Position numbers and translations under genes: made by a program
Notes under the pieces: generated by a model
Databases searched by the model: none
What the model was told of the DNA's origin: nothing
What the model saw: only the letters and a program-made list of their open reading frames with translations
Assembly: GCF_003443615.1 (NCBI RefSeq)
Contig: NZ_CP031967.1
Location: 992,001 to 1,056,000 of the forward strand
DNA length: 64,000 nt
Origin: Alteromonas sp. BL110
GTDB lineage: Bacteria; Pseudomonadota; Gammaproteobacteria; Enterobacterales; Alteromonadaceae
Reading direction: 5' to 3'
Part shown: positions 13,307-63,816 of the stretch, piece after piece
How positions within the stretch are numbered: the first letter of the stretch is position 1
Layout of the letters: every line of letters starts with the position of its first letter

Positions 13307-14603
13307 GTGCCTGCTGCAGTACATCCAGCTTTCCATCTATAGGCGTAACAGGCGAAATACCCAATATTTTAGCCAGCGCTGGATAAACCTCTAAATTGCT
13401 AAATGTAGGTATAGTGGTGTTCGTTTTAAACGCCGGCCCTACTGCAACAAAGGTCGCTCCCATATCAGGTAACGTATTTACGTAGCCATGGCCACCTTTG
13501 CTAACATGCGTACTGTTGGCGTTTTTGAAACGGGCTGGTGGCGCAATTTCGATAATGATATCGCCCGTTCTGCTTCCTACTTCCATGTGACGCTGAGCGC
13601 GCTGGGTGTCATTGAGCACAATGAAGCGGTTTTCGGCTATATAGGTAAGACGTTCTATTTCTTCGGTGATTTGTTTATCGAGCACGTTTTCTCTGGCGTA
13701 AAGATGAACTTGCGCCCCTTCATTTTCAATAATGAAGCTATCAGGAATGGATAAAGACTCTACTTCAATAAGCTGGCTTTCATCGATAGGTGTCATACCG
13801 TGGTCTGACACCACCACTAAATTTATCGGCAAATCTAATGCAGCTATACGCTCATAAAGCTGACCAATAAGTGCATCTACTTCTTGCACCGCATCATTCG
13901 TTTTATCAGCCAACGGTCCTTCATCATGGCCTACCGTATCGGTTAACGAAAAATAGCCAGCGATAAAACGAGGTCGTGATACTTCAGGAAGTTTAAGCCA
14001 ATTTATAATTTGGTCGATTCGTTGCTGATAATCGGCGTATTTAGAGTAGTGGAAAAAGTAGCTGGGCTGTGTCCCCGAAATACGAGCATCAGACTCTGGC
14101 CAGAAAAAGGTAGCGGCCTTCATCCCATGATATTCCACTAAGTTCCATAGCGGCGTTGCCGTGATCCACGTGCTATCCATCCCGCCATAGCCCAACTGAT
14201 ATTTTGCATAACCCTCTTTTGTAGGACGGGATTTATCATAAAAACGGTTATTCACAATACCGTGGTGTTTAGGAAGCAGCCCTGTGATCAACGAAATATG
14301 GTTGGGAAAGGTATTTGACGGATAAACAGGGGTCATCGATGATGCTCTTACCCCTTGCTTTGCGATGGCACCAAGGTGCTTGGCATCGTGTAACTCGATG
14401 TAATCATGGCGAAATCCATCAAGAGAAATTAACACTACATACTGCTCTTGCTTTAGCACTTTGTCTGCTTCGTTTGAAAGTGCTTTACTTGAGGCAAATG
14501 CATTAGACGCGGTGAGCGCTGCAAAGAAAATCGAAATAAATAACGACAGGGCTAACAATAATAGCGATGCATTTTGTTTTCTTTCGTTTGTTGCTAAGCG
14601 CAT
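13296..14603 (-). CDS. Exported type I phosphodiesterase/nucleotide pyrophosphatase (alkaline phosphatase superfamily)
   Basis: 435 residues with an N-terminal signal or anchor (about 12-37, ending AFASS). The catalytic core is that of the NPP family. [13 protein letters not shown] supplies the first metal ligand, [20 protein letters not shown] contains the Thr nucleophile, and SDHGM and GGHGY hold further metal ligands. It probably hydrolyses nucleotides or other phosphodiesters in the periplasm; the exact substrate cannot be read. Same strand as tsaD, but a terminator hairpin lies only about 40 bases before its start. The 3' end overlaps plsY by 11 bases, tail to tail. Confidence 0.85.
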
Positions 14604-40558: not shown

Positions 40559-40675
40559 TTAGACTTTTACACTACGTAACAGAGCGCTTTTTCGATACTC
40601 TTATAGGTTTCGAAAAAGCGTAAGTTATAAGAAACCGTATTCGCTATCACTTTTTAAGTTCTATATAATCACGCG

Positions 40676-40912
40676 GTGTAGGTGCTCTTGTCTCGCTCTA
40701 TAACAACCACATGACAAGAGGTAAACGGGAAATCAGTGAAAAGCTGATGCTGCCCCCGCAACGGTAAACTCAACGCATTGTCGTTTTCTTTTCAATCGCC
40801 ACTGTCTTTTATACGTTAACGCGCTACTGCGCAATAAAACGCCACTAGATGGGAAGGCAAAAGAGCTATTACATTCTTAGTAATGGTGAGTAAGCCCGGA
40901 TACCGGCCTGTA
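40676..40912 (+). promoter_or_regulatory. Cobalamin (B12) riboswitch upstream of btuB
   Basis: Hallmarks of the AdoCbl-type element are present in order: stem CTCTTGTC/GACAAGAG; GGGAA near 40726; GTGAAAAGCTGATGCTGCCC then CCGCAACGGTAA (the B12 box area, 40737-40766); GGGAAGG near 40852; and the closing GGATACCGGCC (40898-40908). It should lower btuB expression when cobalamin is plentiful. No terminator is evident before the start, so translational control is more likely. Confidence 0.9.
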
Positions 40913-41018
40913 CTTCATGGTGTCGTTTGTTTGCTCACTTTCAAAAGAAGTTACGCAACAACGTGCACTTTCACTCATCATGTGCTCGGGTGGAGCGCAT
41001 CAAAGACAATATAAAACC

Positions 41019-46057: not shown

Positions 46058-46933
46058 CTAGGCAGCATCTGATTTCTTAGTGTCTTTTTTTTCAGATGTC
46101 ACCCCGCTGGGTTTTGATGTTCCGTTGTTAGTACGTGAAGTAACGGTTTCAACCTTTTTCTGCTTATCGTATAGGAAGGTTAATACCTCATGTCGGTAGT
46201 GGTTGTATTGTTTATGGTCTGCAAGTGCTAATCTGTCTCGCGGACGAGGTAATTCAATATCTAAGATTTCGCCAATAGTGGCTGCAGGGCCATTGTTCAT
46301 CATAACAATGCGGTCAGATAGCAATACTGCTTCATCCACATCATGAGTAATCATGATGACGGTATTACCTAAATCAGCATGAATTTCCATTAGCGAGTCT
46401 TGAAGATGAGCGCGTGTTAACGCGTCTAGCGCGCCGAACGGTTCGTCCATAAGTAACACTTTAGGCTCCATTGCAAGCGCGCGCGCAATACCCACACGCT
46501 GCTTCATACCACCTGAGATCTCACTTGGTAATTTATCGAGTGCGTGGGTCATGTGTACAAGCTCTAAGTTATGCATGATCCAGTCGCGCATCTCGCCTTT
46601 GCTCTTGCCTCGCATGGTCGATTTAACCGCCAGTTCAACATTTTTATATACAGTAAGCCACGGCAATAGCGAATGGTTTTGAAATACTACGGCGCGCTCT
46701 GGTCCAGGCTGCTTTACTTCAGCGCCATCTAATATCACGCCACCAGAAGTAGCCTGATGCAAACCTGCGATAATATTTAGTACCGTCGATTTTCCGCAGC
46801 CAGAGTGGCCAATTAATGAAACAAATTCACCTTTGCTAATTTTAAGATTTACATCTTGAAGCGCAGTAAATGGCCCCTTCGGTGTTGGGAAGTCGATACC
46901 TACCTGCTCTAACTCTAGGTGTTTAGTGTGCAT
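46058..46933 (-). CDS. nrtD: Nitrate ABC transporter ATP-binding protein NrtD
   Basis: 291 residues, NitT/TauT-type ABC ATPase. Walker A GHSGCGKSTVLNIIAG, Q-loop VVFQNHSLLPWLTVYKN, signature EISGGMKQRVGIARALA, Walker B VLLMDEPFGALDALT, and H-loop MITHDVDEAVLL. The C-terminal 40 residues are a Lys/Ser/Thr-rich tail without a known domain. Third gene of nrtA-nrtB-nrtD, 16 bases after nrtB. Confidence 0.92.
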   Translation of the reverse strand: MHTKHLELEQVGIDFPTPKGPFTALQDVNLKISKGEFVSLIGHSGCGKSTVLNIIAGLHQATSGGVILDGAEVKQPGPERAVVFQNHSLLPWLTVYKNVELAVKSTMRGKSKGEMRDWIMHNLELVHMTHALDKLPSEISGGMKQRVGIARALAMEPKVLLMDEPFGALDALTRAHLQDSLMEIHADLGNTVIMITHDVDEAVLLSDRIVMMNNGPAATIGEILDIELPRPRDRLALADHKQYNHYRHEVLTFLYDKQKKVETVTSRTNNGTSKPSGVTSEKKDTKKSDAA

Positions 46934-46949: not shown

Positions 46950-47945
46950 TTAGCGTAATACGCTCGACTTATCCCAGCTTACCGCGCGCTGAATTGATAA
47001 CATTAAGCGGTCTAAAACGAAACCAATTGCCCCAATAGTAAGCACTGCCACCATAATTCGGGCTAAAGATTCAGAACTACCGTTTTGAAACTCATCCCAG
47101 ACAAACTTTCCTAACCCTGGGTTTTGGGCAAGCATCTCTGCAGCTATAAGTACCATCCACCCAATACCGAGCGATAATCGAAGCCCAGTGAAAATCATCG
47201 GAATTGAAGATGGCAGTACTATTTTCGTAAGGTGCGCAAAAGGTGTAAGACGCAGTACTTTGCTCACATTGATAAGATCTTTTTCGATGTTTGACACCCC
47301 TACTGCAGTGTTAATAAGGGTTGGCCATAAGCAGCAGAGCGAGACCGTGAAGGCGGAAGTTACAAACGACTTAGAAAACGCCGGGTCATCACTGACATAA
47401 AGTGCACTCACTACCATAGTGACTAGTGGCAACCATGCTAGTGGAGAGACAGGTTTAAATAACTGAATAAGCGGGTTTATAGCCGTGTAGGCAGATTTGC
47501 TTAAACCACACAAAATGCCTACGGGAACAGCTATTACGGATGCAATAAAAAATCCAACCATAACGGTATAAAGGCTGGTCCAAATTTGATCGAAGAAAGT
47601 GGGCGAACCGGTAAAATCTCGTATCTTCGGCTCGTAAGTAGGGTCCTGCGCCACTCTTGCCGCATTTCGAGCTTCTTGACGTTGATAAAAGGCATCTGCC
47701 TTTTCACGTTGTGCGACATGCTCGTCTATTAAAGCACCTGCTTGCTCAAAAACTTGTGCAGGGCCTGGGAATTGTCCTAACGATGTATCGATACTTTTTG
47801 CAACGCCATTCCAAATGGCCAAGAACATCAGCAAGCCAATTACAGGCAGCAACAACGCAGGCGTGGATTGGTATAAACGACTCAATAAAGAGTTTGCGTT
47901 TGACGGCGATGATGGAAGGCGAAGAATGGTTGTCATCTTGCTCAT
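46950..47945 (-). CDS. nrtB: Nitrate ABC transporter permease NrtB
   Basis: 331 residues with about six membrane segments. TM1 lies at about 30-50. A polar, Arg/Ala-rich stretch (about 65-115) precedes TM2, making it longer than TauC-type permeases. The cytoplasmic loop that contacts the ATPase contains ALYVSDDPAFSKSF and LRLTPFAHLTKIVLPSSIPM (EAA-like), followed by FTGLRLSLGIGWMVLIAAEM. Member of the CmpB/NrtB permease group by sequence and position. Confidence 0.9.
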   Translation of the reverse strand: MSKMTTILRLPSSPSNANSLLSRLYQSTPALLLPVIGLLMFLAIWNGVAKSIDTSLGQFPGPAQVFEQAGALIDEHVAQREKADAFYQRQEARNAARVAQDPTYEPKIRDFTGSPTFFDQIWTSLYTVMVGFFIASVIAVPVGILCGLSKSAYTAINPLIQLFKPVSPLAWLPLVTMVVSALYVSDDPAFSKSFVTSAFTVSLCCLWPTLINTAVGVSNIEKDLINVSKVLRLTPFAHLTKIVLPSSIPMIFTGLRLSLGIGWMVLIAAEMLAQNPGLGKFVWDEFQNGSSESLARIMVAVLTIGAIGFVLDRLMLSIQRAVSWDKSSVLR

Positions 47946-48032: not shown

Positions 48033-49442
48033 TTACAGAACAGTGTCGCCTTTAAGACCAATATCAAATTGCTCTAAATAGGCGTTAGGTTTACTTCCAT
48101 CAAACGTTACGCCATCAATAAACTCACTCTGAGGCGGCTTGTAGCCTGTTTCCGATTCAAACTCAGGGAAATCAGAGGCCTTTGCTTTGCCCTCAGCGAT
48201 TAGCGCTTTAGCAGCTTGAGCATAAACTTCTGGCTTGTAGACTTTTTTGGCCGTTTCTTTGTACCAATCGTCAGACTTAGCTTCTGAAATTTGTCCCCAG
48301 CGGCGCATTTGTGTGAGATACCAAATTGCATCACTGTAGTATGGATAAGTGGCGTTGTAGCGGAAGAACACATTAAAGTCTGGCACCTCACGCTTATCAC
48401 CTTTTTCGTATTCGAAGGTGCCCGTCATGCTGTTAGCCAGTACGTCTTCGTCTGCGCCAACGTAGTTGCTTTTAGCAAGAATTTTTACTGCTTCAGGACG
48501 GTTAGCATTGTCGTTTTCATCCAACCACATTGCTGCACGAATTAAGGCTTTTACCACGCGAATGTGAGTATTTGGATACTTATCAGCCCAACCTTGGCTT
48601 ACGCCAAATACTTTTTCTGGGTTGTTTTTCCAGATTTCATAATCGGTAATTACAGGTACACCAATACCTTTAAACACCGCTTGTTGGTTCCATGGCTCAC
48701 CTACGCAGTAGCCATAAATAGTGCCCGCTTCCATTGTCGCCGGCATTTGAGGTGGTGGCGTTACAGACAATAGCGCTTGTGCATCGATTTGGCCTGCGGT
48801 ATCCCCCTTATGAGGGGCGTAATAGCCTGGGTGAATGCCACCTGCAGCTAGCCAATAACGCAGTTCGTAGTTGTGGGTAGACACAGGAAATACCATGCCC
48901 ATATTGAAGGGTTTCCCAGCGTTGCGGTATTCATCAACGACCGGTTTAAGGTAATCAGCTTTGATTGGATGAACTGGCTTACCATCTTCCTGTGGAATGT
49001 GGGCCTTCATTTTTTCCCAAATCTCATTTGATACAGTAATACCATTGCCGTTTAGGTCCATGCTAAACGCAGTAACAACATGAGATTCCGTACCAAAGCC
49101 AATAGTCGCGCCCAGTGGCTGACCTGCAAGCATATGCGCGCCATCTAGCTGGCCATCAATAACCCGATCAAGAAGCACTTTCCAGTTAGCTTGGGCTTCT
49201 AATGTGACGTAAAGCCCTTCATCTTCGAAAAAGCCTTTTTCATAGGCCACTGCAAGCGGCGCCATATCTGTCAGTTTAATAAAGCCAAACTTCAGCTCTT
49301 CTTTCTCTGGCCATCCTACTGCGGGCGCTTGTGCTGAAACAGATGTTGAAAATGTTGCTACAGAGACGACAAGTGCAGCACAAACGCTAGCGCCCACCGT
49401 TCTAAAGCGTTCTAGTAATGATGTTGCCTTTAATCCAGTCAT
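48033..49442 (-). CDS. nrtA: Nitrate-binding protein NrtA
   Basis: 469 residues with a signal peptide (ending VSAQAPAV). NrtA/CmpA-type solute-binding protein: [20 protein letters not shown], the ligand-side block [40 protein letters not shown], and [20 protein letters not shown]. The start has GAGGA 6-7 bases ahead. First gene of the nitrate uptake operon. The leader holds a terminator and a NasR-type hairpin; further upstream are a -24/-12 promoter and NtrC-like sites. Confidence 0.94.
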
Positions 49443-49459: not shown

Positions 49460-49546
49460 AAAAAAAAACCCACCAGCTAAAGACATTTCACTGTCTAGCA
49501 TGGTGGGCTTCGTTGCCGTGTTAGTAACATCGGAGTAATTACTAAC
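49460..49546 (-). promoter_or_regulatory. NasR-type antitermination leader of nrtA
   Basis: Reading the minus strand: hairpin P1 (GTTAGTAA/TTACTAAC, 49520-49546), then P2 with stem GGC/GCC and hexaloop AACGAA (49506-49517). Then comes an intrinsic terminator whose arms CCCACC/GGTGGG (49469-49507) share bases with P2, with an inner AGACA/TGTCT stem and nine U. P2 and the terminator cannot form together. ANTAR proteins are known to bind two small hairpins with hexaloops having A at position 1 and G at position 4; P2 fits exactly, P1 only as a stem. Confidence 0.8.
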
Positions 49547-49822
49547 GCATCAAGTTGTATTGGTAAGTCAGGAATTCCCGCTCACACACCTCATCTTAAA
49601 GGGAGGTTATATAAAAGCTTTAGCTTAATAAAACCATCTTTTTTATTGTTATTATCATTTGCCACAAATGCTGGAGAAGATGGAGCTTCCTTACTACTCT
49701 CCACTGATTCCTAACAATTTTTCTTATTCACACTATGGAAAATGTTGTGCTTTACACGATGCACGAACAGCCGTGTAGCATTCGCTGCCCTATACGGCAA
49801 CGTTATTTTGCACGTTTTACTT

Positions 49823-49839
49823 AGCAGTCAACGTGCCAA
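49823..49839 (-). promoter_or_regulatory. Sigma-54 promoter of the nrt operon
   Basis: Minus-strand TTGGCACGTTGACTGCT has GG and GC exactly ten bases apart (the -24/-12 rule) and matches TGGCACN5TTGCW in nearly all positions. Predicted start is about 49812, giving a leader of about 370 bases. Confidence 0.72.
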
Positions 49840-49914
49840 AATTTTAAGCTACTGATTATTATATTAATAATTTGAAACCGGGGCGTATGATTAGCACAAA
49901 AAGAAAGGTTTGGT

Positions 49915-49963
49915 GCACCAAAACGGTGGAGGTGTTCAACCATGGTGCGAGTAAATAGGCACC
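49915..49963. promoter_or_regulatory. NtrC-like enhancer sites upstream of the nrt promoter
   Basis: GCACCAAAACGGTGG (49915-49929) fits GCACCN5GGTGC with one mismatch. A GGTGC half-site (49944-49948) and a GCACC half-site (49959-49963) follow. They lie about 105-150 bases upstream of the predicted start, the normal distance for NtrC. Confidence 0.6.
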
Positions 49964-50021
49964 ACGATTGAATTAATCCGAATGGACAGGTGAGCTCAAT
50001 TCGAGGGGTAGGCGCTTTGTT

Positions 50022-51338
50022 CTACAGACGTTTAGTAAACTGTCCGATAGCGTTAACTACCTCGTTCGCTCCACTTTGAATTTCACCCATCGCGTTACCT
50101 GATTGGGTTGAATATTCTAATGCATCGCGGGCTTTTTCTTGCCCAGCCTCGATAAGCTGAACGGCATTTTCAGTAAGTTTCCTGTTCTCTACCACCACAT
50201 TTACTATTTCTTCCGTAGCGCTACTTGTCCGTGAGGCCAATTGTCTTACTTCATCTGCCACCACAGCAAACCCTCTACCTTGATCTCCTGCACGAGCGGC
50301 TTCAATAGCGGCGTTTAGCGCAAGTAAATTGGTTTGATCGGCAATTCCGCTAATACTTTTAACCAAATCAGCAACTTTTTGAGATTGCTCATCAAGGTCT
50401 TTAATGCCTTCGCTCGCATTACCCATCTGGGTAGTAAGTTCGTTCATTGCTTTCACTGTAGCATTGAGAACTTCACTACCTTTGCGGGCTTGCTCTCCCG
50501 TCTCTTGCGATATGTTAAACGCCACGTTAGCCGCCTCAGATATAGCGAATTCACGCTGCATTTGCTCAGTAATGACAGTGGCAAACTTGACGACTTTATA
50601 AAAGTTTCCGTCTTCATTTCTAATTGGGTTATACGACGCTTCTAACCAGACTTCGTTGCCCCTACTGTCTATTCGCTTAAACCTACCTGACTCTAACTTC
50701 CCTTGAGCTAAGTCCCTCCAGAAGTGCTTATATTCTTCTGAGTTAGCTTCTTGTTCGGTACAGAAGATTCTGTGATGCTTACCTTCTATCTGCTCCAAGG
50801 TGTAACCCATACCTTTAAGAAAGTTGTCATTCGCTGTTATTATCGTTCCATCTAAATTGAACTCAATGACAGCAGATGAACGATGGAGAGCAGCAATCAT
50901 GTCGCGAAGTTCGTTGCTATGCGTAATATTTCGCGTTTGTTCGGCCATGTAGAAGGCGATATATTTTACGCTACCCTGCGCATCATCAACGGGCTGCACA
51001 ATACCTCGCACCCATATTTCTTGGCCTTTCGCATCCATAAAGCTAACAGCACCGTGCCAATGGCGATGCGTTTTTATAGCTCCGAGCATATCCTGGGCGG
51101 CAGGCTTTCTGAGCGCATTTTGGCTCATCATACTTTCAAGAGACTTTCCTTCTAATTCACCTATTGAGTAGCCAGTTGCTTGAGAACACAAGTCGTTAAT
51201 AGTATTAACTCTGCCGTCAGGGCTTAACTCTATGTAAAGCATCTCTTCGCGAAGCTCTTCCTGAACTGTTTGATATGCCTCAATTTCTTTTTGCAAACGT
51301 GAGTTGTCAGCTATCAACTCTTTATTTTTAAAAAACAT
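50022..51338 (-). CDS. Soluble PAS-PAS chemoreceptor (BdlA-like)
   Basis: 438 residues without membrane segments. An N-terminal coiled stretch is followed by two PAS domains (about 45-145 and 165-270; second one [20 protein letters not shown]). The receptor signalling rod (about 280-438) has tip [20 protein letters not shown] then [20 protein letters not shown]. The layout and length are those of BdlA of Pseudomonas (417 residues), which acts in biofilm dispersal. ATG 51338 has CAGGAG 8 bases ahead; another ATG at 51380 lies upstream without one. Located between nrtA and ybiB; a link to nitrate sensing is only positional. Confidence 0.85.
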
Positions 51339-51507
51339 TCTCTGCTCCTGATGAACTAAGCGGCGCTTATTCTTCAGCATGTAAGCTTTCGGCGATACAG
51401 TCTTTGACAGATAGACCCTGCTCCGTCACTCGCAATTACGCTTAGTGTCTGAAACGATAAGCTAAATTTTTTTGGTTTTGATTAAAGATAGCAGAGGAAT
51501 TGAAGTT

Positions 51508-51550
51508 TATACCAATCCGCATAGATAATTGCCCACTCAGAAGGCGCTGG
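51508..51550. repeat. Dispersed intergenic repeat (partial second copy)
   Basis: TATACCAATCCGCATAGA followed by about 25 bases that align with the left part of 16705-16763. The right inverted end is missing here. It lies just beyond the ybiB stop. Confidence 0.55.
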
Positions 51551-51585
51551 CAAGTTTCCTAGCGAAGCGTGGGAATGCAGGAAGG

Positions 51586-52572
51586 CTAGAATGGCATTGC
51601 CGTTTTTTGTCTTTTTGACCAAAGCAGCCTTGCTTGCGACAAGGCATCTGCAGCATCACAATTTTGAAGAAGCACTAAGTAGCTGGCTAGTGTACTTAAT
51701 ATGGCTTGTTCACCGTAAAGGCTACTCGCTTTACCCGCCCAAACATCTAGCATATCGTCTACGTTCATATGTTTGTCTTTAAGCGCCCATTTGTCGGCAA
51801 CCACCGGCATTATTACTTCTTCAGTTTTACCATTTCGGGTAATGAATAGTTCGGTTTCCCTCTCTCCGTTTACCTCAGGGTCGCCACCGTCGCCGCGAAA
51901 GCAGAGGGCGTTAATCGACGGGTAATTTTCATTTACACGGCAGTGCTTATGGTCAAGATGCATGTGGTACACCCCCTGCACACAAAACTCTGCGCCAGTG
52001 GGGTTCAATAACCTGGCTAGAGTGTTGGCACAAGAACGCAACCCAAACACGTCTCGCAGCTTAATAATGGTATCTAGGGACGGTAACAAATAAGATAAAT
52101 CGAGATAGGTTACGCATTTATCAGCAAGCTGCTGGTTTGCCTCAGCGATACTGGTAACCTCAACAAGGCCTAACTTGGGTAGCGCTATGCTTGCATAGAG
52201 GCGTCCTGAGCCCGGCTCATGGGCACCGTGAAGCATAATTGAATAACCGTTTTTGGCCAGTACAGCTACCGCCAGTAAGTACCAAGGAAGCTGGCGACGT
52301 TTTCCTGCATAACACCCAATATCTAACGTCGGGGTAAGTGTCTTAACCTCTGGCTCAATGAGTTCTCGGCATGCATCAACAAAACCAATAACTTCTTCTG
52401 GGGTTTCTTCACGGGTGCGAAGTAACATAAGAAATGCGCCGCGTTGATCGCCGGTCACCTTATTGGCCAATACCATTTTCATGGCATGGTAAGCTTCATC
52501 ACGGGTAAGACTACGCCCCCCTTTTTGACCCTTACCAATAATCTTTATGTATTCGCTAAATGGTTGTTGCAT
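51586..52572 (-). CDS. ybiB: YbiB/TrpD2-type glycosyltransferase-fold protein
   Basis: 328 residues related to anthranilate phosphoribosyltransferase but with altered active-site motifs: LTRDEAYHAMKMVLANKVTG, LDIGCYAGKRRQLPWYLLAV, MLHGAHEPGSGRLYASIALP, RSCANTLARLLNPTGA. E. coli YbiB (TrpD2) binds nucleic acids without a known enzymatic activity. It is the last gene of the nitrate/nitrite reductase operon and its first 17 bases overlap cobA. Why it is kept with nitrate assimilation is not known. Confidence 0.85.
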   Translation of the reverse strand: MQQPFSEYIKIIGKGQKGGRSLTRDEAYHAMKMVLANKVTGDQRGAFLMLLRTREETPEEVIGFVDACRELIEPEVKTLTPTLDIGCYAGKRRQLPWYLLAVAVLAKNGYSIMLHGAHEPGSGRLYASIALPKLGLVEVTSIAEANQQLADKCVTYLDLSYLLPSLDTIIKLRDVFGLRSCANTLARLLNPTGAEFCVQGVYHMHLDHKHCRVNENYPSINALCFRGDGGDPEVNGERETELFITRNGKTEEVIMPVVADKWALKDKHMNVDDMLDVWAGKASSLYGEQAILSTLASYLVLLQNCDAADALSQARLLWSKRQKTAMPF

Positions 52573-53533
52573 GCTCAGATGAATGTAGTAGAAGTGTATT
52601 TACCTGTTGACGAGACTCTACCACCTTTCCAAATATAAGTAACGTGGGCCCGCTTAAATTTGCAGCCTCTACTTTGCGATGAATATCGGAGAGCTCACCA
52701 GTAATTACGCGCTGTTGAGGCGATGTAGCATTTTCAATTGCTGCCACCGACCACGTACTTGGTACTTTGTGCTGTATCAAACCTTTGCAAAGCCCCTCAA
52801 GTCGGCTTAACCCCATATAAACTACCATGGTTTGCTTTAACACATTTTGCGCCATGGGCGCCATTTCAGGCCATTGCTCTGCATCTTTAAAATGTGCCGT
52901 CATAAAACTTACTGACTGAGCACAGCGCCTATCGGTTAGAGGGATACCCGTATAGGCCGACACACCCGATGCCGCTGTAATCCCTGGCACAATAGCAAAC
53001 GGGATATTAGCTTTTGTAAGCGCATCCGTTTCTTCACAGGTTCTGGCGAATAAGGCAGGGTCGCCACCTTTTAACCGAACCACAGTATGGCCCAAGCTGG
53101 CCAGTTCAACCACTCGCTTGCAAATTTCTTCTTGGGTAAAGCTATGCTTTTTGCAGCGCTTTCCTACGTATTCTTTCGCTACGCTCGAGGGAATGAGCGA
53201 TAGAATATCTTCGCTTACAAGTGCATCAAACAATACCACGTCGGCTTGCTGTAAAAGGCGAAGCGCTTTTAAGGTGAGCAGCTCTGCATCGCCAGGGCCT
53301 GCGCCGACGATAAACACCTGGCCCTGCTTATGATTCGCATTTCGTAGGTTTGCTGTCTTCAGCCACTTGTCTAGGTACGAATGCTTAACTAAAGATTTGC
53401 TATTTTCAGGACGCTGGCGTGTAGCCGAAGTCTTAGCGGAACTAGCATCGCGATAAAAGAAATTAAACAAAGGTTTTTGCTGTTTGAATAAGGTGCGCAA
53501 AAACGGTAACGACCAGCTAGATGCAATTGACAT
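52556..53533 (-). CDS. cobA: Uroporphyrinogen-III C-methyltransferase CobA
   Basis: SAM-dependent enzyme making precorrin-2, the first committed step to siroheme, the cofactor of NirB. 325 residues: a variable N-terminal extension (about 1-68), then the methyltransferase domain with GQVFIVGAGPGDAELLTLKA (signature), VVRLKGGDPALFARTCEE and VPGITAASGVSAYTGIPLTD. The extension is longer than in plain SUMT and has no domain I recognise. Follows nasA by 12 bases. Confidence 0.93.
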   Translation of the reverse strand: MSIASSWSLPFLRTLFKQQKPLFNFFYRDASSAKTSATRQRPENSKSLVKHSYLDKWLKTANLRNANHKQGQVFIVGAGPGDAELLTLKALRLLQQADVVLFDALVSEDILSLIPSSVAKEYVGKRCKKHSFTQEEICKRVVELASLGHTVVRLKGGDPALFARTCEETDALTKANIPFAIVPGITAASGVSAYTGIPLTDRRCAQSVSFMTAHFKDAEQWPEMAPMAQNVLKQTMVVYMGLSRLEGLCKGLIQHKVPSTWSVAAIENATSPQQRVITGELSDIHRKVEAANLSGPTLLIFGKVVESRQQVNTLLLHSSEHATTI

Positions 53534-53545
53534 AATTTAACGCTC

Positions 53546-56464
53546 CTAAACAGATTGGGTTTCTATAACTAAATGCTTGTCTATAAGCTGAGACAAGGCG
53601 GGCTTACAAGAACCACAGTTAGTGCCACATTTTAACTGATTACCAAGTTCGTGTACCGATGAGCAGCCTTTGATGATGGCATCTGTAATCGTCTTTTCTC
53701 GTACTTCAAAGCAGCTACAAACTACATCGCCATTTAGAAACGCTTCATCCACCTGGCCTCGCAATAAGTTGCGTTGTGACTCACTAGAAATAGGCGTATT
53801 TAAAAGGCTAGCAAGCCATGCGTTAGGCACTGACCATGTGCTTTTTGAATGCGGCGCTGGCTGCGCTATTGTACGTGTGGCTGCTGGTGACCTTGCAGCT
53901 TTTTCTGGCTCATCGCCTAGAAACGCAGCAAAGCAGAGTATGTCATCGACAAGCGCAAGGCATACTGAGTACTTATGATGATGAAACTGCAATAGCACCG
54001 CGTTTTGCGACAGTAGAGGTATCAACGCTTGTGTAAATTCTCGACGGCCTTTGTTCGAAGCTACGTTTAATACTGATAGCGCTTCTTCAGAACTACTTCC
54101 CTTTGATGTAGCGCCTTCGGCCTCAAGCGGTGTTTTATTCCAGTAATCACATACTTTCTTTAGCGCTTCTTGATTATCGATGCAGGGATTATCGATGCTG
54201 TTTTTTAAGTCGTGTGACGATTGTATTTTTGACGATAAAAACAGTTTTCCATACGTAGCGTAGCGTACAGGCGCAATAGCCACAGCAGCGTGTTTTAGTT
54301 CGGGCTGTCCTGAAATAGGGTCTACCGCGCTGGCGTAAAGTGCACCTAGCTTACTGTGAGAGCCCCATTGTGCCGACCAATGAATGGGAATGAACACTTC
54401 CCCTTCGCGCATATCCGTATCCGCTTTAACCGGGTAAATAACTGGGGCGTCTTGACACACCGCACTTGTTAGAGAGACGAGGTCATTATTTGCAACACCC
54501 AAATCAGCAGCATCTTTAGGGTTTATGTATACAGAGGCGCTGGGCATATGGGCGAGTAACTTTGCGGCTTTACCTGTGCGCGTCATGGTGTGCCATTGGT
54601 CTCGCGCTCGGCCGCTGTTAACGACAAAAGGGTAAGCATCTGACGTTACCTGCAACGGGGCTTTATAGGTTACAGGAATGAGCCTAGCTTTACCGCTAGG
54701 GGTTGAAAACTGCTTGTCTTCAAAAGGACGCTTGCTAATAAGGTTAGGCTTATTGTTTGCACTGAGCTTAGCGCTACATGAAGACGTATTTAAAACTGCG
54801 TTCTGAAAAGGCCACTGGATAGGCGATAGACCGTTGTACTGAACTTCACTTAACGCTTGTAAGGGAGAAAGGTCTAATTGTCGTTTCCCATTATTGTGAT
54901 AGCCGGTTAGCCCAGCGTATTCGCAGAATATTTGTGACGGATGGGTAAAATTAAATGCCTCGCCAAAGCCCATTTTCGTCGCCACGTCGCACATAATTTG
55001 CCAATCGTGTTTTGCATTACCTGGCGGTGGCAATATACCGCGCTGACGTGAAATACGGCGTTCTGAGTTTGTCACCGTACCGTCTTTTTCCGACCATCCC
55101 GTGGCGGGAAGAGCAATATGAGCGTAGGCAAGCGTATCATTCGATTCGACAATATCAGACACTACGACCATCTCGCACTTTGAAAGTGCGCGCTCAACTT
55201 GGACTCGATTAGGCATACTGACAACAGGGTTAGTCCCCATTATCCAAACGAATTTTACCTTTCCTTCCTCAATAGCATTAAATAGATCTACGGCTTTGAG
55301 CCCCTGCCCTTTGGGCATAACGGGTGCATCCCAGTAGGTTTTTACTGATTCGATATGTTCAGGGTTGTCTAAATCCATATGTGCAGCAAGCATGTTAGCT
55401 AGCCCACCTACTTCACGCCCTCCCATGGCATTGGGCTGACCTGTGATGGAAAATGGACCACAACCGTCTTTGGCAATTAAGTCTGTAGCCAGGTGACAGT
55501 TAATGATGGCTTGGGCTTTATCTACACCAGCTGAAGACTGATTAACGCCCATAGAATAAAAAGTAATTGCACTAGACGCTTTACAGAATGCGTCGAAAAA
55601 AGCCTTAACCTTGCTTAGTTCTATACCGCATACGCTAGCCACGTCATCCAGTGTTAAGGTACTTGCACTTTCAAGCGCTTCATCAAGCCCGTCGGCATAG
55701 GTTTCAACGGTGGCTTTATCAATTCTACCTTGTGCGTTTGCATAGCTAAGTAAGCCGTTAAACAGCGCAACGTCACTACCTGGTGTTATAGGCAGGTGTA
55801 GGTCAGCTATCGTACAGGTTTCCGTTTTGCGAGGGTCGACAACGATGACCTTCATATTTGGGTTCTTCAGCTTTGCTCGCTGAATGCGCTGAAAAAGCAC
55901 GGGGTGCGCCCACGCCGTATTGCTGCCGGTGATGACTAATAAATCTGTACACTCTAAGTCGGTGTAATCACAAGGCACCACGTCTTCACCAAAGGCGCGC
56001 TTATAAGCGGCTACGGCTGATGACATGCAAAGACGAGAGTTGGTATCTATATTGGCACTGCCGATATAACCTTTCATTAGTTTATTGGCAATATAGTAGT
56101 CTTCGGTAAGAAGCTGGCCTGATACATAAAAAGCAACGGCATCCGCGCCATACTGCGCAATGGTAGATGTGATCTTGTCCGCAATCACACCGGTGGCCGT
56201 GTCCCAATCCACCGGTTGACCCGCTATGGTTGGGTGAAGCAAACGTCCATTTAGGTCGTTTGTTTCAAGCAGGTTTGTTCCTTTAACACACAATCTTCCA
56301 TAATTGGCGGGATGCTCTGGCGTGCCTTTAACAGTGTCCAGGGATACGGCACGCTTGCTTACGTTGCAACTGATATCTACACCACACCCTACGCCACAGT
56401 ATGGGCATGTTGTTTGTCTTAGTTGTTCAGACATCATGTCGGGTTGTCGTGTAGCCATATTCAT
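53546..56464 (-). CDS. nasA: Assimilatory nitrate reductase catalytic subunit NasA
   Basis: 972-residue molybdopterin enzyme reducing nitrate to nitrite in the cytoplasm. The N-terminal 4Fe-4S site uses C20, C23, C27 (TCPYCGVGCG) and a fourth Cys in GRLCVKG. The MGD-binding core follows (SRLCMSSAVAAYKRAFGEDV, SNTAWAHPVLFQRI, CGPFSITGQPNAMGGREVGG). A C-terminal BFD-like [2Fe-2S] domain (about 895-950) reads CSCFEVREK ... CGTNCGSCKPAL, supplying an electron entry as in NasA with no NasC partner here. Between nirD and cobA. Confidence 0.96.
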   Translation of the reverse strand: MNMATRQPDMMSEQLRQTTCPYCGVGCGVDISCNVSKRAVSLDTVKGTPEHPANYGRLCVKGTNLLETNDLNGRLLHPTIAGQPVDWDTATGVIADKITSTIAQYGADAVAFYVSGQLLTEDYYIANKLMKGYIGSANIDTNSRLCMSSAVAAYKRAFGEDVVPCDYTDLECTDLLVITGSNTAWAHPVLFQRIQRAKLKNPNMKVIVVDPRKTETCTIADLHLPITPGSDVALFNGLLSYANAQGRIDKATVETYADGLDEALESASTLTLDDVASVCGIELSKVKAFFDAFCKASSAITFYSMGVNQSSAGVDKAQAIINCHLATDLIAKDGCGPFSITGQPNAMGGREVGGLANMLAAHMDLDNPEHIESVKTYWDAPVMPKGQGLKAVDLFNAIEEGKVKFVWIMGTNPVVSMPNRVQVERALSKCEMVVVSDIVESNDTLAYAHIALPATGWSEKDGTVTNSERRISRQRGILPPPGNAKHDWQIMCDVATKMGFGEAFNFTHPSQIFCEYAGLTGYHNNGKRQLDLSPLQALSEVQYNGLSPIQWPFQNAVLNTSSCSAKLSANNKPNLISKRPFEDKQFSTPSGKARLIPVTYKAPLQVTSDAYPFVVNSGRARDQWHTMTRTGKAAKLLAHMPSASVYINPKDAADLGVANNDLVSLTSAVCQDAPVIYPVKADTDMREGEVFIPIHWSAQWGSHSKLGALYASAVDPISGQPELKHAAVAIAPVRYATYGKLFLSSKIQSSHDLKNSIDNPCIDNQEALKKVCDYWNKTPLEAEGATSKGSSSEEALSVLNVASNKGRREFTQALIPLLSQNAVLLQFHHHKYSVCLALVDDILCFAAFLGDEPEKAARSPAATRTIAQPAPHSKSTWSVPNAWLASLLNTPISSESQRNLLRGQVDEAFLNGDVVCSCFEVREKTITDAIIKGCSSVHELGNQLKCGTNCGSCKPALSQLIDKHLVIETQSV

Positions 56465-56552
56465 GTCATTACCTTTTTCGATTTCGCAGTAATTGAATGC
56501 GTTTTTGCAAGAAGGTTTTATTCATATGGGCATTCAAATAAGGGCAGTTCGC

Positions 56553-56921
56553 TTAAATGCCTACAAATACCTTCTCGCCCTCTACCTTTACAGGGTAAGC
56601 CGTGACGAATACATCATCGTGCTCTTTACACAGCCCCGTTTCTAAAAAGTAATGCTCTTTGTACAGCGGCGAAGCGACAACTGGTGCGCCGCCTATCGAC
56701 CCCAAAAGTCCGCGATAAAGCACGTTTGCTTTACCAATAGGGTCGTAGTTACTAATGGCAAAAACCTGAGTTTCGCCCTTTATTTTCAAACAGAAAAGAG
56801 CCACTTGCTGTGAGTCAACAAGGGCGCAAACGCCACTGTTTGTCACTAGGTCGTTCGTCTCACAAACTAGGTGCCATTGCACTGCCTGTTCCGATGCTAT
56901 TACGTTTTGCGCAGCTGTCAT
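56553..56921 (-). CDS. nirD: Nitrite reductase (NADH) small subunit NirD
   Basis: 122-residue partner of NirB with a Rieske-like fold that lacks the cluster ligands, as usual for NirD. WHLVCETNDLVTNSGVCALV, QVALFCLKIKGETQVFAISN and GSIGGAPVVASPLYKEHYFL are typical. Follows nirB by 57 bases. Confidence 0.92.
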   Translation of the reverse strand: MTAAQNVIASEQAVQWHLVCETNDLVTNSGVCALVDSQQVALFCLKIKGETQVFAISNYDPIGKANVLYRGLLGSIGGAPVVASPLYKEHYFLETGLCKEHDDVFVTAYPVKVEGEKVFVGI

Positions 56922-56978
56922 AATTTGTATCTCCTAACAAGGTTGATAAGCCAGTGGCTACACCATTAAGTCTATGGG

Positions 56979-59528
56979 CTACACCATAGAGACGGGAATA
57001 AACTGATCTTTCCCTGCTACTTTTTCAGCTTCCGTGGCTGGGCGAACCTGTCCGCGCTCTGAAACAAACTGAATATTGGTGTCGCTGGCACTACTGTTTA
57101 CAAATTGACGGAAACGTTTGCGCGACTCAGGGTCTTCAATGGTGGTTTTCCATTCGCACTGATAAGCATCAACCACAGCATCCATCTGTGCTTCAAGCTC
57201 TTCATTAATGCCAAGTGCATCGTTGATCACAACATCTTGCAGGTAAGCTAACCCACCTTCTAAGTTGTCCATCCACACTGATGTGCGCTGTAAGCGGTCG
57301 GCCGTTTTCACATAAAACATCAGCACGCGGTCGATGTATTTAATAAGCGTTTCCGTATCTAGGTCGGTGGCAAACAGATCGGCATGTCGTGGTTTCATAC
57401 CGCCATTTCCGCACACATACAGGTTCCAACCTTGCTCGGTAGCGATAACACCAATGTCTTTGCTTTGTGCCTCTGCACACTCGCGGGTACAGCCTGATAC
57501 GGCAAATTTGATTTTGTGCGGCGCACGTAAGCCCTTGTATCGGTTTTCCAAATCAATAGCCGTGCCCACTGAGTCCTGCACACCGTAGCGGCACCAAGTA
57601 CTTCCCACACAAGATTTCACAGTACGCAGTGCTTTCGCATACGCGTGACCGGTTTCAAATCCACCGGCGACGAGCTTTTCCCAAATATCAGGTAAATGCT
57701 CTACACGCGCGCCAAATAAATCGATGCGCTGCCCACCAGTGATTTTGGTGTAAAGGTTATATTCTTTCGCCACTTCGCCTAACAAAATCAATTTTTCTGG
57801 CGTGATTTCTCCGCCCGGCACGCGAGGCACCACAGAATAGGTACCGTCTTTTTGCATGTTGCCAAGATAGATGTCATTGGTGTCTTGTAGAGGAAGGTGT
57901 GAAGCTTTTAGGATGTAGTCGTTGTAGACTGATGCCAGAATAGACCCCACAGCAGGCTTACAAATTTCACAACCTAGGCCTTCACCATGTTGTTCAAGTA
58001 GCTCATCGAAAGTGCGAATACCGTTAACTTTAACAATGTGAAACAGCTCCTGTCGGGTGTAATTGAAGTGCTCACAAATCGCTTTCGATACTTCAACACC
58101 GCGCTTTTCAAGCTCGCTGTCTACCACATTTTTAAGCAGGGCGGCACAACCCCCACAACCAGTACTGGCTTTAGTTTCACCTTTTACGTCGCCAACGCTG
58201 CAACAGCCACCTTCAATAGCTGAAACAATGTCGCCCTTTGTCACGTTTAGGCACGAGCATATAGACGCGGTGTCTGGCAGAGCATCGGCACCTAGTGCTG
58301 GTGCGGCATCGGATGATGGAAGAATTAGACTTTCTGGGTGTTCAGGTAATTCGATGTTGTTAAGCGTATACTGTAAAAGCGTATCGTAGTCGCTGGTATC
58401 GCCAACAAGAACAGCACCTAGTATGTACTTTTGCTCGCTATCTACCACCAGCTTTTTATACACGCCTTCAGGCTGATTCAAGTAGGTGTAGCTAAGGGCA
58501 CCTTCTGTACGTTCGTGCGCATCGCCAATTGAGCCCACTTCTACGCCCATTAGCTTCAGTTTGGTACTCATATCTGCGCCAACGAACTCGGCATCGCCAC
58601 CGGTTATATGACTTACTGCCGTGCGTGCCATGGTATAACCAGGTGCAACCAGGCCAAAGATTTTGTTATCCCACAGCGCACATTCGCCCACTGCGTAAAT
58701 ATTAGGGTCAGAGGTCACGCAGTGGTTATCAATGACAATACCGCCGCGCTCGCCTAATGTTAATGCTGACTTTCTACCAAGCTGATCTGACGGACGAATG
58801 CCGGCAGAAAATAAAATCATATCGGTCTCAAGCGCGGTTCCGTCAGCAAACACCATTTTATAGCGGCAGGTATCACCAGCTTCGATAGTTTGGGTTGCCT
58901 TTTGGGTATGAACGGTTACGCCTAAATCTTCAATTTTGTCTTTAAGTACGGTACCACCGGCTTGGTCTAACTGCACCGCCATAAGCTGTGGCGCAAATTC
59001 AACCACGTGAGTATCTAGTCCAGCTTGCTTTAAGGCGTTCGCGGCTTCTAAACCTAGAAGACCACCACCAACAACAACACCTACTTTACTCACCGCTGCT
59101 GACGCTTCAATAGCGAGTAGGTCGTCAATGGTGCGGTACACTAGGCAATGCTCTTGATCGTTACCTGGAATGGGGGGCACGAAAGGATAAGAACCGGTGG
59201 CAAGAACCAGCTTGTCGTAGTTGAACACCTGCCCTTCTGACGTTGTGACTTTATTATTATCACGGTCAATATCAGTAACTAAGGCATTGGTAACAACATT
59301 TATGCCCCACTCGGCATACTGAGCGGGTGTAGTAAGCGCTAAGTCGTCAGCACTCGCACCACTAAAAAAAGATGACAAATAAACGCGGTCGTACGCGAGG
59401 CGAGATTCGCCGCATAAAACGGTTATTTCTACATTGGCATCGCTTTGGTGAAGCTGCTCAACAAAATGGTGCCCCACCATGCCGTTGCCTACGACGACAA
59501 TTTGCGTTTTTGAGTCCAATGAAGTCAT
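56979..59528 (-). CDS. nirB: Nitrite reductase (NADH) large subunit NirB
   Basis: 849 residues. N-terminal FAD/NAD module (VVVGNGMVGHHFVEQL at about 5-22; GVVVGGGLLGLEAANALKQA). A BFD-like [2Fe-2S] region (about 420-470) contains CSCLNVTKGD ... STGCGGCAAL. The siroheme/4Fe-4S part has TVKSCVGSTWCRYGVQDSVG and FAVSGCTRECAEAQSKDIGV. It reduces nitrite to ammonium with NADH. The frame extends to an ATG at 59552, but that stretch encodes the ribosome site; 59528 follows GGGGAA. First gene of nirB-nirD-nasA-cobA-ybiB, behind a NasR-type leader. Confidence 0.97.
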   Translation of the reverse strand: MTSLDSKTQIVVVGNGMVGHHFVEQLHQSDANVEITVLCGESRLAYDRVYLSSFFSGASADDLALTTPAQYAEWGINVVTNALVTDIDRDNNKVTTSEGQVFNYDKLVLATGSYPFVPPIPGNDQEHCLVYRTIDDLLAIEASAAVSKVGVVVGGGLLGLEAANALKQAGLDTHVVEFAPQLMAVQLDQAGGTVLKDKIEDLGVTVHTQKATQTIEAGDTCRYKMVFADGTALETDMILFSAGIRPSDQLGRKSALTLGERGGIVIDNHCVTSDPNIYAVGECALWDNKIFGLVAPGYTMARTAVSHITGGDAEFVGADMSTKLKLMGVEVGSIGDAHERTEGALSYTYLNQPEGVYKKLVVDSEQKYILGAVLVGDTSDYDTLLQYTLNNIELPEHPESLILPSSDAAPALGADALPDTASICSCLNVTKGDIVSAIEGGCCSVGDVKGETKASTGCGGCAALLKNVVDSELEKRGVEVSKAICEHFNYTRQELFHIVKVNGIRTFDELLEQHGEGLGCEICKPAVGSILASVYNDYILKASHLPLQDTNDIYLGNMQKDGTYSVVPRVPGGEITPEKLILLGEVAKEYNLYTKITGGQRIDLFGARVEHLPDIWEKLVAGGFETGHAYAKALRTVKSCVGSTWCRYGVQDSVGTAIDLENRYKGLRAPHKIKFAVSGCTRECAEAQSKDIGVIATEQGWNLYVCGNGGMKPRHADLFATDLDTETLIKYIDRVLMFYVKTADRLQRTSVWMDNLEGGLAYLQDVVINDALGINEELEAQMDAVVDAYQCEWKTTIEDPESRKRFRQFVNSSASDTNIQFVSERGQVRPATEAEKVAGKDQFIPVSMV

Positions 59529-59550
59529 GGTATTCCCCTTTTTTCGGGAC

Positions 59551-59636
59551 AAAAAAAAGCCCGCTTCAACTTTCGTTGATGCGGGCTTCGTTGCCTATTT
59601 TGCTAGTACTGACGCTAAAGTTCAGCAGAATCTAGC
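59551..59636 (-). promoter_or_regulatory. NasR-type antitermination leader of nirB
   Basis: Minus strand: P1 (GCTAG/CTAGC with inner CTGA/TCAG, 59602-59636), six bases, then P2 GGC-AACGAA-GCC (59584-59595). Then the terminator GCCCGC/GCGGGC (59559-59586) with inner TCAAC/GTTGA and eight U (59551-59558). P2 uses the same 12 bases as the nrtA leader and competes with the terminator. It ends 22 bases before the nirB ATG. Confidence 0.82.
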
Positions 59637-59721: not shown

Positions 59722-59738
59722 TCCAAGTTCAGTGCCAA
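59722..59738 (-). promoter_or_regulatory. Probable sigma-54 promoter of the nirB operon
   Basis: Minus-strand TTGGCACTGAACTTGGA matches TGGCACN5TTGCW except that the -12 GC is GG. Position and partner sites support it; predicted start is near 59711. Confidence 0.5.
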
Positions 59739-62397: not shown

Positions 62398-63816
62398 GTG
62401 CTTGAAAGCAATACTTCGCAAAAAACTATCAATAAAAAAGCGAATTGCGTAAACCAACATTTAGCAGGGCCTCTTATGCTGCACGAACCTGAACAAACCA
62501 TTGCGCTTTGTAGCGATGCGACCAAACGTTTTTTGCTCGCCGCAAAACATGCAGAAATCACTGTGTTAGAACAGCTTTCTAGTAACTGTCGTATTGTTAT
62601 TGCGGTTCGTGAGCTTATACATGAACTGCAAAAAGAGCGCGGAGCCAGCAATATCTTTCTTGCGTCTAAAGCCGAGCGCTACCAAGTTGAGCGAATGCAG
62701 TATGTCAGTGCTAGTGAACAAGCAGAGTCAATGCTAAAAAGCCATTTGAAGTCTCTCTACTTAACTGATGAGATCACTTCTGGTAACCCGCGCCTATTAA
62801 GCAGTATTACTTTAGCCATGCAGGCGACAGACTATTTGCCACGCTTAAGAGAACAAGTCAGTAAGCAGCAGCTAACGCCACTAGAATCAACACGAGCCTA
62901 CAGCCGTTTAGTGGCAAGTTTACTTACTGTCATTTTTGAAGCAGCAGATATTGCAAGCGATCCAACCATTACCCGCTTACTGGTTGCTTTGTTCAACTTC
63001 ATGCAGGCCAAAGAATATGCAGGGCAAGAGCGAGCGTGGGGGGCAATTGGTTTTGCAGAAACCCATTTCGATGTGCGCCTATGTGAAAAGCTTACTGCGC
63101 TTCAGCATGCCCAAGAGCATCACTTCAATATATTCTGTGAATTTAGCTGTAAGCCGCATAAAGAGGCATTGGAAGCATTAAATAAAAGCCCTGCCGCAAT
63201 AGATATTACACAGCTTAGAAATATGATCGCGCAGCTAGGAGACGGCAGCCCTATTGCCGGCGAAATATCAGAAGTTTGGTTCGATGTTGCAACCCGACGT
63301 ATAGATGCAATGCAGGATATCGAGGTAGCATTGACCGAAGCCTTAACACAGCAAGCTAACAGTAAAGTAGCCAATGCAAAAAATGAAATGGCCAATCATC
63401 AACAGTTGCTTACACGCTTTAACAATGAGCACGCCAATGATGGCTCGCCGCTCACTTTACTGTTTGACCCCAGCATGCCCGGCTTAGCGGAAGATACAAA
63501 AGACGACGAGATTAAAACGCTGTCACTCGATGAGCAGACTAAAACCTTATCGGCCCACCGCTCTTTTTACGACTTACTGCGTTCACAAGCCCAGCATATA
63601 GAAGACATGGGACGAGAGCTTGAAGAGGCTAAGCGTGCAATTCAAGATCAGAAGCTGATAAGCCGAGCAAAGCTGGTAGTAATGGAACAATTTGGACTAA
63701 GCGAAAACAATGCGTATCGCCGACTGCAAAAACAAGCGATGAGCGAAAATACAACCATAGCGGCTATTGCCACTAAGATAGTAGATATTACTACGAAAAA
63801 TTCTTTGAGAAAGTAG
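62398..63816 (+). CDS. nasR: Nitrate-responsive antitermination regulator NasR (NIT + ANTAR)
   Basis: 472 residues. The NIT nitrate-sensing domain (about 60-330) has LIHELQKERGASNIFLASKA and FMQAKEYAGQERAWGAIGFA, closely matching Klebsiella NasR (ERGASNIW; MQGKELAGQERALGALGF). The C-terminal ANTAR domain (about 405-465) reads IQDQKLISRAKLVVMEQFGL then SENNAYRRLQKQAMSENTTI. When nitrate binds, NasR stabilises leader hairpins so that polymerase passes a terminator. Two matching leaders are in this window (nrtA and nirB). GTG 62398 is the longest start and has no clear ribosome site; ATG 62476 (MLHEPEQTIALC) is a good alternative. Confidence 0.92.
   Translation: MLESNTSQKTINKKANCVNQHLAGPLMLHEPEQTIALCSDATKRFLLAAKHAEITVLEQLSSNCRIVIAVRELIHELQKERGASNIFLASKAERYQVERMQYVSASEQAESMLKSHLKSLYLTDEITSGNPRLLSSITLAMQATDYLPRLREQVSKQQLTPLESTRAYSRLVASLLTVIFEAADIASDPTITRLLVALFNFMQAKEYAGQERAWGAIGFAETHFDVRLCEKLTALQHAQEHHFNIFCEFSCKPHKEALEALNKSPAAIDITQLRNMIAQLGDGSPIAGEISEVWFDVATRRIDAMQDIEVALTEALTQQANSKVANAKNEMANHQQLLTRFNNEHANDGSPLTLLFDPSMPGLAEDTKDDEIKTLSLDEQTKTLSAHRSFYDLLRSQAQHIEDMGRELEEAKRAIQDQKLISRAKLVVMEQFGLSENNAYRRLQKQAMSENTTIAAIATKIVDITTKNSLRK

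Follow-up and report, generated by a model that had tools for sequence, protein, structure and literature searches.

According to published accounts, ANTAR antitermination depends on two hairpins, P1 and P2, each with a six-base loop that has A at position 1 and G at position 4 (an A1/G4 hexaloop), though the ANTAR dimer is seen binding one loop at a time; why both are needed is a question raised in excerpts of PMC8934654. In the eut leaders of Enterococcus faecalis, as excerpts of PMC3369931 and PMC8934654 describe them, the A1/G4 hairpin P2 and a terminator are mutually exclusive, a change in either loop cuts induction in vivo, and the EutV dimer has been suggested to transfer from P1 to P2. 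The NasR/nasF system of Klebsiella oxytoca combines a NIT-ANTAR protein, a sigma54-like box, a nitrate assimilation operon and a P2 A1/G4 hexaloop that overlaps an intrinsic terminator. We analyzed a window of 64,000 nucleotides (nt) from Alteromonas sp. BL110 (contig NZ_CP031967.1, positions 992,001 to 1,056,000), a member of a genus abundant in the sea, and found the same elements at two operons, nrtABC for nitrate uptake and nirBD-nasA for reduction. Unlike nasF, which carries a second C:G-closed A1/G4 hexaloop in P1, and unlike the eut leaders, the Alteromonas nrtA and nirB leaders have no such loop in P1, and the NasR landing sites of these leaders seem to retain only one loop of the pair that recognition is believed to require.

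The original prediction held that both leaders contain P1, then a P2 hairpin of identical stem and loop, then a U-run terminator whose 5' arm includes the 3' arm of P2. This two-leader observation is confirmed, and its interpretation as NasR-type switches is partly supported. The elements, in window coordinates, are as follows.

49823..49838, minus strand, sigma54-like box of nrtA, TGGCACGTTGACTGCT, matching 11 of 12 consensus letters
49520..49546, minus strand, P1 hairpin of the nrtA leader, GTTAGTAAT-TACTCCGAT-GTTACTAAC, 9 base pairs (bp) with a 9-nt loop and no A1/G4 hexaloop
49506..49517, minus strand, P2 of the nrtA leader, GGC-AACGAA-GCC, an A1/G4 hexaloop closed by C:G
49460..49510, minus strand, intrinsic terminator of the nrtA leader, with a nine-U run at 49468-49460, overlapping the P2 3' half
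59722..59737, minus strand, sigma54-like box of nirB, TGGCACTGAACTTGGA, matching 10 of 12 consensus letters
59602..59636, minus strand, P1 hairpin of the nirB leader, GCTAG...CTAGC with an inner TGCTGA/TCAGTA stem, longer and bulged, its loop not A1/G4
59584..59595, minus strand, P2 of the nirB leader, the same as the nrtA P2
59551..59589, minus strand, intrinsic terminator of the nirB leader, with an eight-U run at 59558-59551, overlapping the P2 3' half

Matching P2/terminator switches thus stand ahead of both operons, with the loop AACGAA carrying the predicted A1 and G4. Folding recovered both terminators, at -24.5 kcal/mol for nrtA (z score -6.4) and -22.8 kcal/mol for nirB (z -6.7), with 0 of 200 shuffles equally stable in either case. 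In both folds the terminator 5' arm starts within the P2 loop and absorbs the P2 3' arm, so that P2 and terminator are mutually exclusive. A dedicated terminator scan missed both structures, for which a mismatch and bulges in the stems are thought responsible. The predicted P1 hairpin exists in both leaders, clear in nrtA (-8.3 kcal/mol and z -3.3, equalled by 1 of 200 shuffles) and weak in the window's nirB sequence (z -1.4, equalled by 14 of 200), but it lacks the A1/G4 hexaloop that the name NasR-type implies; the linker between P1 and P2 is 2 bases in nrtA and 6 in nirB. No Rfam family reached its gathering threshold over either leader, the content of Rfam for ANTAR RNA not having been looked up. 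Two further stretches on the minus strand stood out: in the nrtA leader, a stretch of some 45 nt that precedes P1 (49607-49561, CCTCCCTTTAAGATGAGGTGTGTGAGCGGGAATTCC...) and lies outside P1, P2 and the terminator is near-invariant in the closest relatives, and in the nirB leader a hairpin-forming AACACTCCGTAAAATGTGTT directly upstream of P1 (59657-59638) is conserved in the window's clade and has ACTCCG in common with the nrtA P1 loop.

P2 followed by a T-run was present in 26/26 nirB and 25/25 nrtA leaders from the window and 25 relatives, the nrtA count being one short because the contig of locus L044 ends before the gene. Across the genus, this pattern occurred in 47 of 59 genomes and a reversed control pattern in one, which rules out a chance origin; a few forward matches lie elsewhere (for example, one each in genomes G019 and G029), and in the BL110 genome the two distinct places matched are the two window leaders. 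Exactly the same 47 genomes have nirB, and 46 of them encode an ANTAR protein, one per genome. The single genome with pattern and nirB and without an ANTAR protein is G005, a draft in 590 contigs that is 7% contaminated. In the remaining 12 genomes nirB, an ANTAR match and the pattern are all absent, so the genus offers no natural experiment of nirB without NasR. The P2 5' half and A1 play no part in the terminator; within the leaders they are near-invariant. The P2 stem itself did not vary in the two alignments counted, which is conservation and not covariation; the compensatory changes looked for in relatives were found in P1 and not in P2. In seven family nirB leaders 5 of 9 P1 pairs showed such changes, with a covariation score reached by 0 of 500 shuffles; in six nrtA leaders the figure was 2 of 9 pairs, and shuffles matched the score in 17 of 500 cases and the number of pairs in 149 of 500. 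Both sets of scores are inflated by the relatedness of the sequences.

The protein that would read these leaders was correctly predicted at position 62398. NasR (62398-63816) has a NIT domain (E value 5e-49) and an ANTAR domain (E 9e-16), matches the solved Klebsiella NasR structure 4AKK by sequence (E 1.3e-35) and is 90-93% identical to other Alteromonas NasR proteins; the 4.46-Mb genome gave no other ANTAR match. All 27 Alteromonas NasR proteins compared retain R236, which we take to be a NIT residue, and R176. The latter is named as such in excerpts of PMC7496416. E358, K347 and M370 are likewise retained in 27/27, with Y or H at position 362.

Both leaders lie downstream of sigma54-like boxes, sigma54 being associated with nitrogen-limitation control. 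At least 10 of 12 consensus letters were matched upstream of 18/31 Alteromonas nrtA and 24/33 nirB leaders, versus 0.6% and 0.8% of base shuffles, and upstream of 30/30 Enterobacterales nasF leaders (base shuffles about 1%). The same score was reached in only 3/11 nirC and 2/14 other-family nirB upstream regions, most others scoring 9.

As a named control for the missing P1 loop, we used 31 Enterobacterales nasR loci, which yielded 30 nasF leaders, L072 having none; P2, a terminator and a sigma54-like box were present in the same proportion of loci (30/31). Here P2 is GGAU-AAAGGC-GUCC or GGAU-AACGGC-GUCC, unlike the GGC stem and AACGAA loop of Alteromonas nrtA and nirB, and a C:G-closed A1/G4 P1 hexaloop stands 7-12 nt upstream of P2 in 30/30 leaders (2.1 expected from shuffles). 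No such P1 occurred within 90 nt of P2 in 33 Alteromonas nirB leaders (1.1 expected), 31 nrtA leaders (0.8 expected; one of them, L113, was not gene-classified and is counted here) or 14 other-family nirB leaders (0.8 expected). With longer stretches and stems of at least 4 bp, nirB (140 nt) again gave 0/33 (0.5 expected) and nrtA (320 nt) gave 3/31 (1.5 expected), the three matches differing from one another in sequence and place.

A covariance search had been proposed as a check. Our canonical dual-motif NasR model, R1, in which 5 of 7 P1 pairs have changes on both sides, detected neither of the two window leaders, even at E up to 10 and with the filters switched off, because their P1 lacks the A1/G4 hexaloop. 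Among 40 other loci R1 gave four matches at E <1e-5 (L153, L154, L159 and L263, none from the training set) and missed or only partly matched many loci called dual, which makes it specific rather than sensitive; it also matched L242, called P2-only, at E 8e-4. From a class-wide sample of 369 we drew nine non-Alteromonas genomes with NasR, six of which have a two-loop pair (L153, L154, L155, L085, L158 and, by eye, L159); the remaining three, including L160, showed no leader in the stretches inspected. Of 20 other-family loci, 6 (L191-L195 and L204) showed no leader close to nasR.

The window had also been held to contain a complete sensor-RNA-target set. This did not hold, as a third leader lies about 0.84 Mb from the other two. 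The best R1 match in the BL110 genome (15.6 bits, E 0.12, covering the P2 part only and not significant alone) fell on a P2, GGAC-AAAGGC-GUCC, followed by a terminator upstream of a gene for a 282-residue NirC-type FNT protein, with a sigma54-like TGGCACTTTTTTGGCA further upstream (by eye).

1501-1546 in locus L281 (C1:152688), nirC leader of the BL110 genome, ahead of nirC at 1636-2484

The nirC leader is thus like nrtA and nirB in its A1/G4 P2, terminator and sigma54-like box and unlike them in P2 sequence. A 14-base motif, GGAYAAAGRCGTCC, occurred in 41 of 59 genus genomes, and its reversed control in 7; of these sites 30 were inspected: 28 lie ahead of nirC, a terminator was scored at 26, and at 6 a strict P1 stands no more than 90 nt away. 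Also unlike nrtA and nirB, a C:G-closed A1/G4 P1 (at least 4 bp, within 160 nt) is retained by 6 of the 34 distinct nirC leaders of Alteromonas, where 0.8 were expected, and a complete loss of the P1 loop in the genus is thereby refuted. By eye, P1 of the BL110 nirC leader has a 6-bp stem and the loop AAAAAC, with A1 and without G4, and the near relative L301 has the loop AAAGGC with the same stem and linker length, a pair that looks like loop decay with the stem retained. Three strict P1 matches in family nirC leaders (n=10, 0.4 expected) coincide in part with a stronger hairpin, GGAGGUG, and were not counted as P1.

Comparison between genomes brings out both leaders, their terminators, the conservation of P2, the co-occurrence with one ANTAR protein and the absence of a canonical P1 loop, and it lends good support to the predicted NasR antitermination at nrtA and nirB. 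We consider it probable that nrtABC and nirBD-nasA each have a leader that controls them by antitermination in response to nitrate, and that the one NIT-ANTAR protein, NasR, reads both leaders; since P1 is without an A1/G4 hexaloop, P2 would be the only canonical ANTAR site. A NasR switch is the expected case, its principle being known, and the single-loop form would be a variant. From sequence comparison we infer NasR binding, a response to nitrate, NasR-dependent read-through, sigma54 use and a role for P1, as follows. Transcription of both operons would start at a sigma54-type promoter, probably under nitrogen-limitation control, and without nitrate would end at the U-run terminator. With nitrate, the NasR ANTAR dimer would bind the P2 A1/G4 hexaloop and hold the P2 3' arm (GCC), which would block the base of the terminator and allow read-through. 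P1 would have kept its hairpin and lost its hexaloop, unlike in the Klebsiella nasF leader, and is most likely a structural neighbor that insulates or stacks on the 3-bp P2 or pauses polymerase.

Several observations weigh against this single-loop account, and some of them feed a different one, in which the leaders are dual-hexaloop leaders with a divergent first loop and NasR reads P1, or a weak upstream hairpin, together with P2 through a relaxed loop. The P1 hairpin is kept in 30/31 nrtA leaders (folding at z < -1, median -2.6), and A1/G4 hexaloops with any closing pair (at least 3 bp, within 90 nt) exceed expectation in nirB, at 17/33 versus 9.6. Seven of these 17 have in common a single weak hairpin closed by A-U, UAA-AAUGUG-UUA, which the window carries at 59648-59637; one of the seven rows is identical to the window's. 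In 4 of 31 distinct nirB leaders an A1/G4 hexaloop ends within 15 nt of P2 (1.9 expected), and one of the four, L142, bears it on a 9-bp stem; the nrtA and nirB leaders may therefore contain a degenerate second ANTAR site. The C:G-closed P1 loops surviving at nirC, and the AAAAAC loop of BL110 itself, point the same way, and Alteromonas NasR may still read two loops there. P1 is also weak as a stem in many nirB leaders: 19/33 fold at z < -1 (median -1.3; other-family nirB 12/14), and among distinct sequences 12/31 nirB and 18/28 nrtA leaders (family nirB 9/13) have a perfect stem that ends no more than 8 nt from P2 and outperforms shuffles at p 0.05. Against a divergent first loop, the P1 loops of nrtA and nirB range from 3 nt upward with none common to the family, any-closing A1/G4 hexaloops show no excess in nrtA (4/31, 6.3 expected; nirC 4/11, 3.0 expected), none ends within 15 nt of P2 in 28 distinct nrtA leaders (1.2 expected), and R1 misses both window leaders. 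We therefore regard two-loop reading at nrtA and nirB as unlikely.

A further point against NasR reading P2 lies in the protein. Nearly all ANTAR domains have the Arg340 of Klebsiella, which RNA binding requires: binding is lost with R340A and weaker with R340K, and R366A protein fails to bind RNA (excerpts of PMC7496416). EutV Arg142, which by our own numbering match is the counterpart of Arg340, contacts G4 of P2 (excerpts of PMC8934654). Klebsiella and Alteromonas NasR differ at positions 340, 366 and 193. Position 340 is Q in 22 and H in 5 of 27 Alteromonas proteins, and Q in 19 and H in 1 of 20 other-family loci; it is R in 30/30 Enterobacterales, 7/7 other gammaproteobacterial (3 gapped rows left out) and 40/40 Pseudomonadales loci. 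Position 366 is Q in 27/27 Alteromonas proteins. Glutamine at position 340 could signal altered RNA binding. It also fits the idea, as does the comparative nature of the NasR-leader link, that the leaders are constitutive attenuators or answer to another factor, with P2 merely part of the terminator. The near-invariance of the P2 5' half and A1, the joint gain and loss of pattern, nirB and one ANTAR protein, and the retention of E358, K347 and M370 all argue against this idea, which we hold to be very improbable.

The comparison also went beyond the genus. We fetched 40 Pseudomonadales loci, drawn from the 52 out of 390 genomes in which NasR had a match; by script, 23 of the 40 showed no leader, some of these being then inspected by eye, and 16 of 29 scripted leaders had a strict P1 no farther than 130 nt away, where 1.9 were expected. 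Leaders without a canonical P1 occur alongside Arg340 (for example L241-L244, L248, L250, L255-L258, L260 and L266), so the loss of Arg340 came later than the loss of the P1 loop and cannot be its cause; as a driver of that loss it was rejected. On a tree of 91 NasR rows, 73 with labels and 18 without, leader type, P2-only or dual, needed 5 changes versus 22.9 with shuffled labels (0/500), a figure helped by near-copies, and leader type therefore follows NasR lineage. Alteromonas rows were labelled by nrtA/nirB and not by nirC; labels assigned by eye were dual for L159, L246, L254, L262, L267 and L276 and P2-only for L241-L244, L248, L250 and L259. The label of L279 rests on a U:G-closed loop, and L258, L260 and L270 were labelled P2-only despite one relaxed-test match each, taken as chance. 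Position 366 is Q in 35/44 P2-only and 1/29 dual rows, for which an independent-pairs test had only 5 pairs. L246 was labelled dual though both its loops are G-initial (by eye, about 13750-13789: P1 GACGUA, P2 GACGGC). Loop position 1 has thus changed in parallel in the two loops, a hint that one site reads both.

We give roughly even chances to a wider scenario in which one A1/G4 hexaloop suffices for antitermination in a whole NasR lineage, P1 turned structural at nrtA and nirB, and Arg340 of Alteromonadaceae then changed to Gln or His. If true, a single-hexaloop NasR lineage would contradict the view that ANTAR antitermination needs two hexaloops. For the question of why there are two, test material is at hand in nrtA and nirB leaders that have a single canonical loop, next to two-loop nirC leaders of sister species. 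The suggested regulon would place uptake, reduction and a nirC-type channel under a joint sigma54 and nitrate gate. In titles and abstract openings among the matches listed for Alteromonas, NasR and nitrate assimilation, these leaders are not named; the supplementary target tables of PMC3369931 may list them.

The genes of the two operons and of the regulator are as follows.

48033..49442, minus strand, nrtA, nitrate ABC transporter substrate-binding protein (NMT1-like)
46950..47945, minus strand, nrtB, permease; best NCBIfam model TIGR01183 (ntrB), scoring under its cut-off
46058..46933, minus strand, nrtC, ATPase; TIGR01184 over its cut-off
56979..59528, minus strand, nirB, nitrite reductase large subunit, starting at the ATG at 59528
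56553..56921, minus strand, nirD, nitrite reductase small subunit (Rieske)
53546..56464, minus strand, probable assimilatory nitrate reductase, molybdopterin oxidoreductase with a BFD-like domain; NasC and NasA models match under their cut-offs
62398..63816, plus strand, nasR, NIT-ANTAR protein with Q at Klebsiella positions 340 and 366

The TTG at 59552, given as the nirB start in the open reading frame list, sits inside the terminator. The nitrate reductase at 53546-56464 (minus strand) is far less conserved than its neighbors, for example 59% versus 85% for NirB in L040. Between the two nitrate operons lies a PAS-PAS methyl-accepting chemotaxis gene (50022-51380, minus strand) that is also present in L028-L040 and has no match in L041-L052. 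Elsewhere in the window, a cobalamin riboswitch at 40663-40925 (plus strand) scored 94 bits, far over the Rfam threshold.

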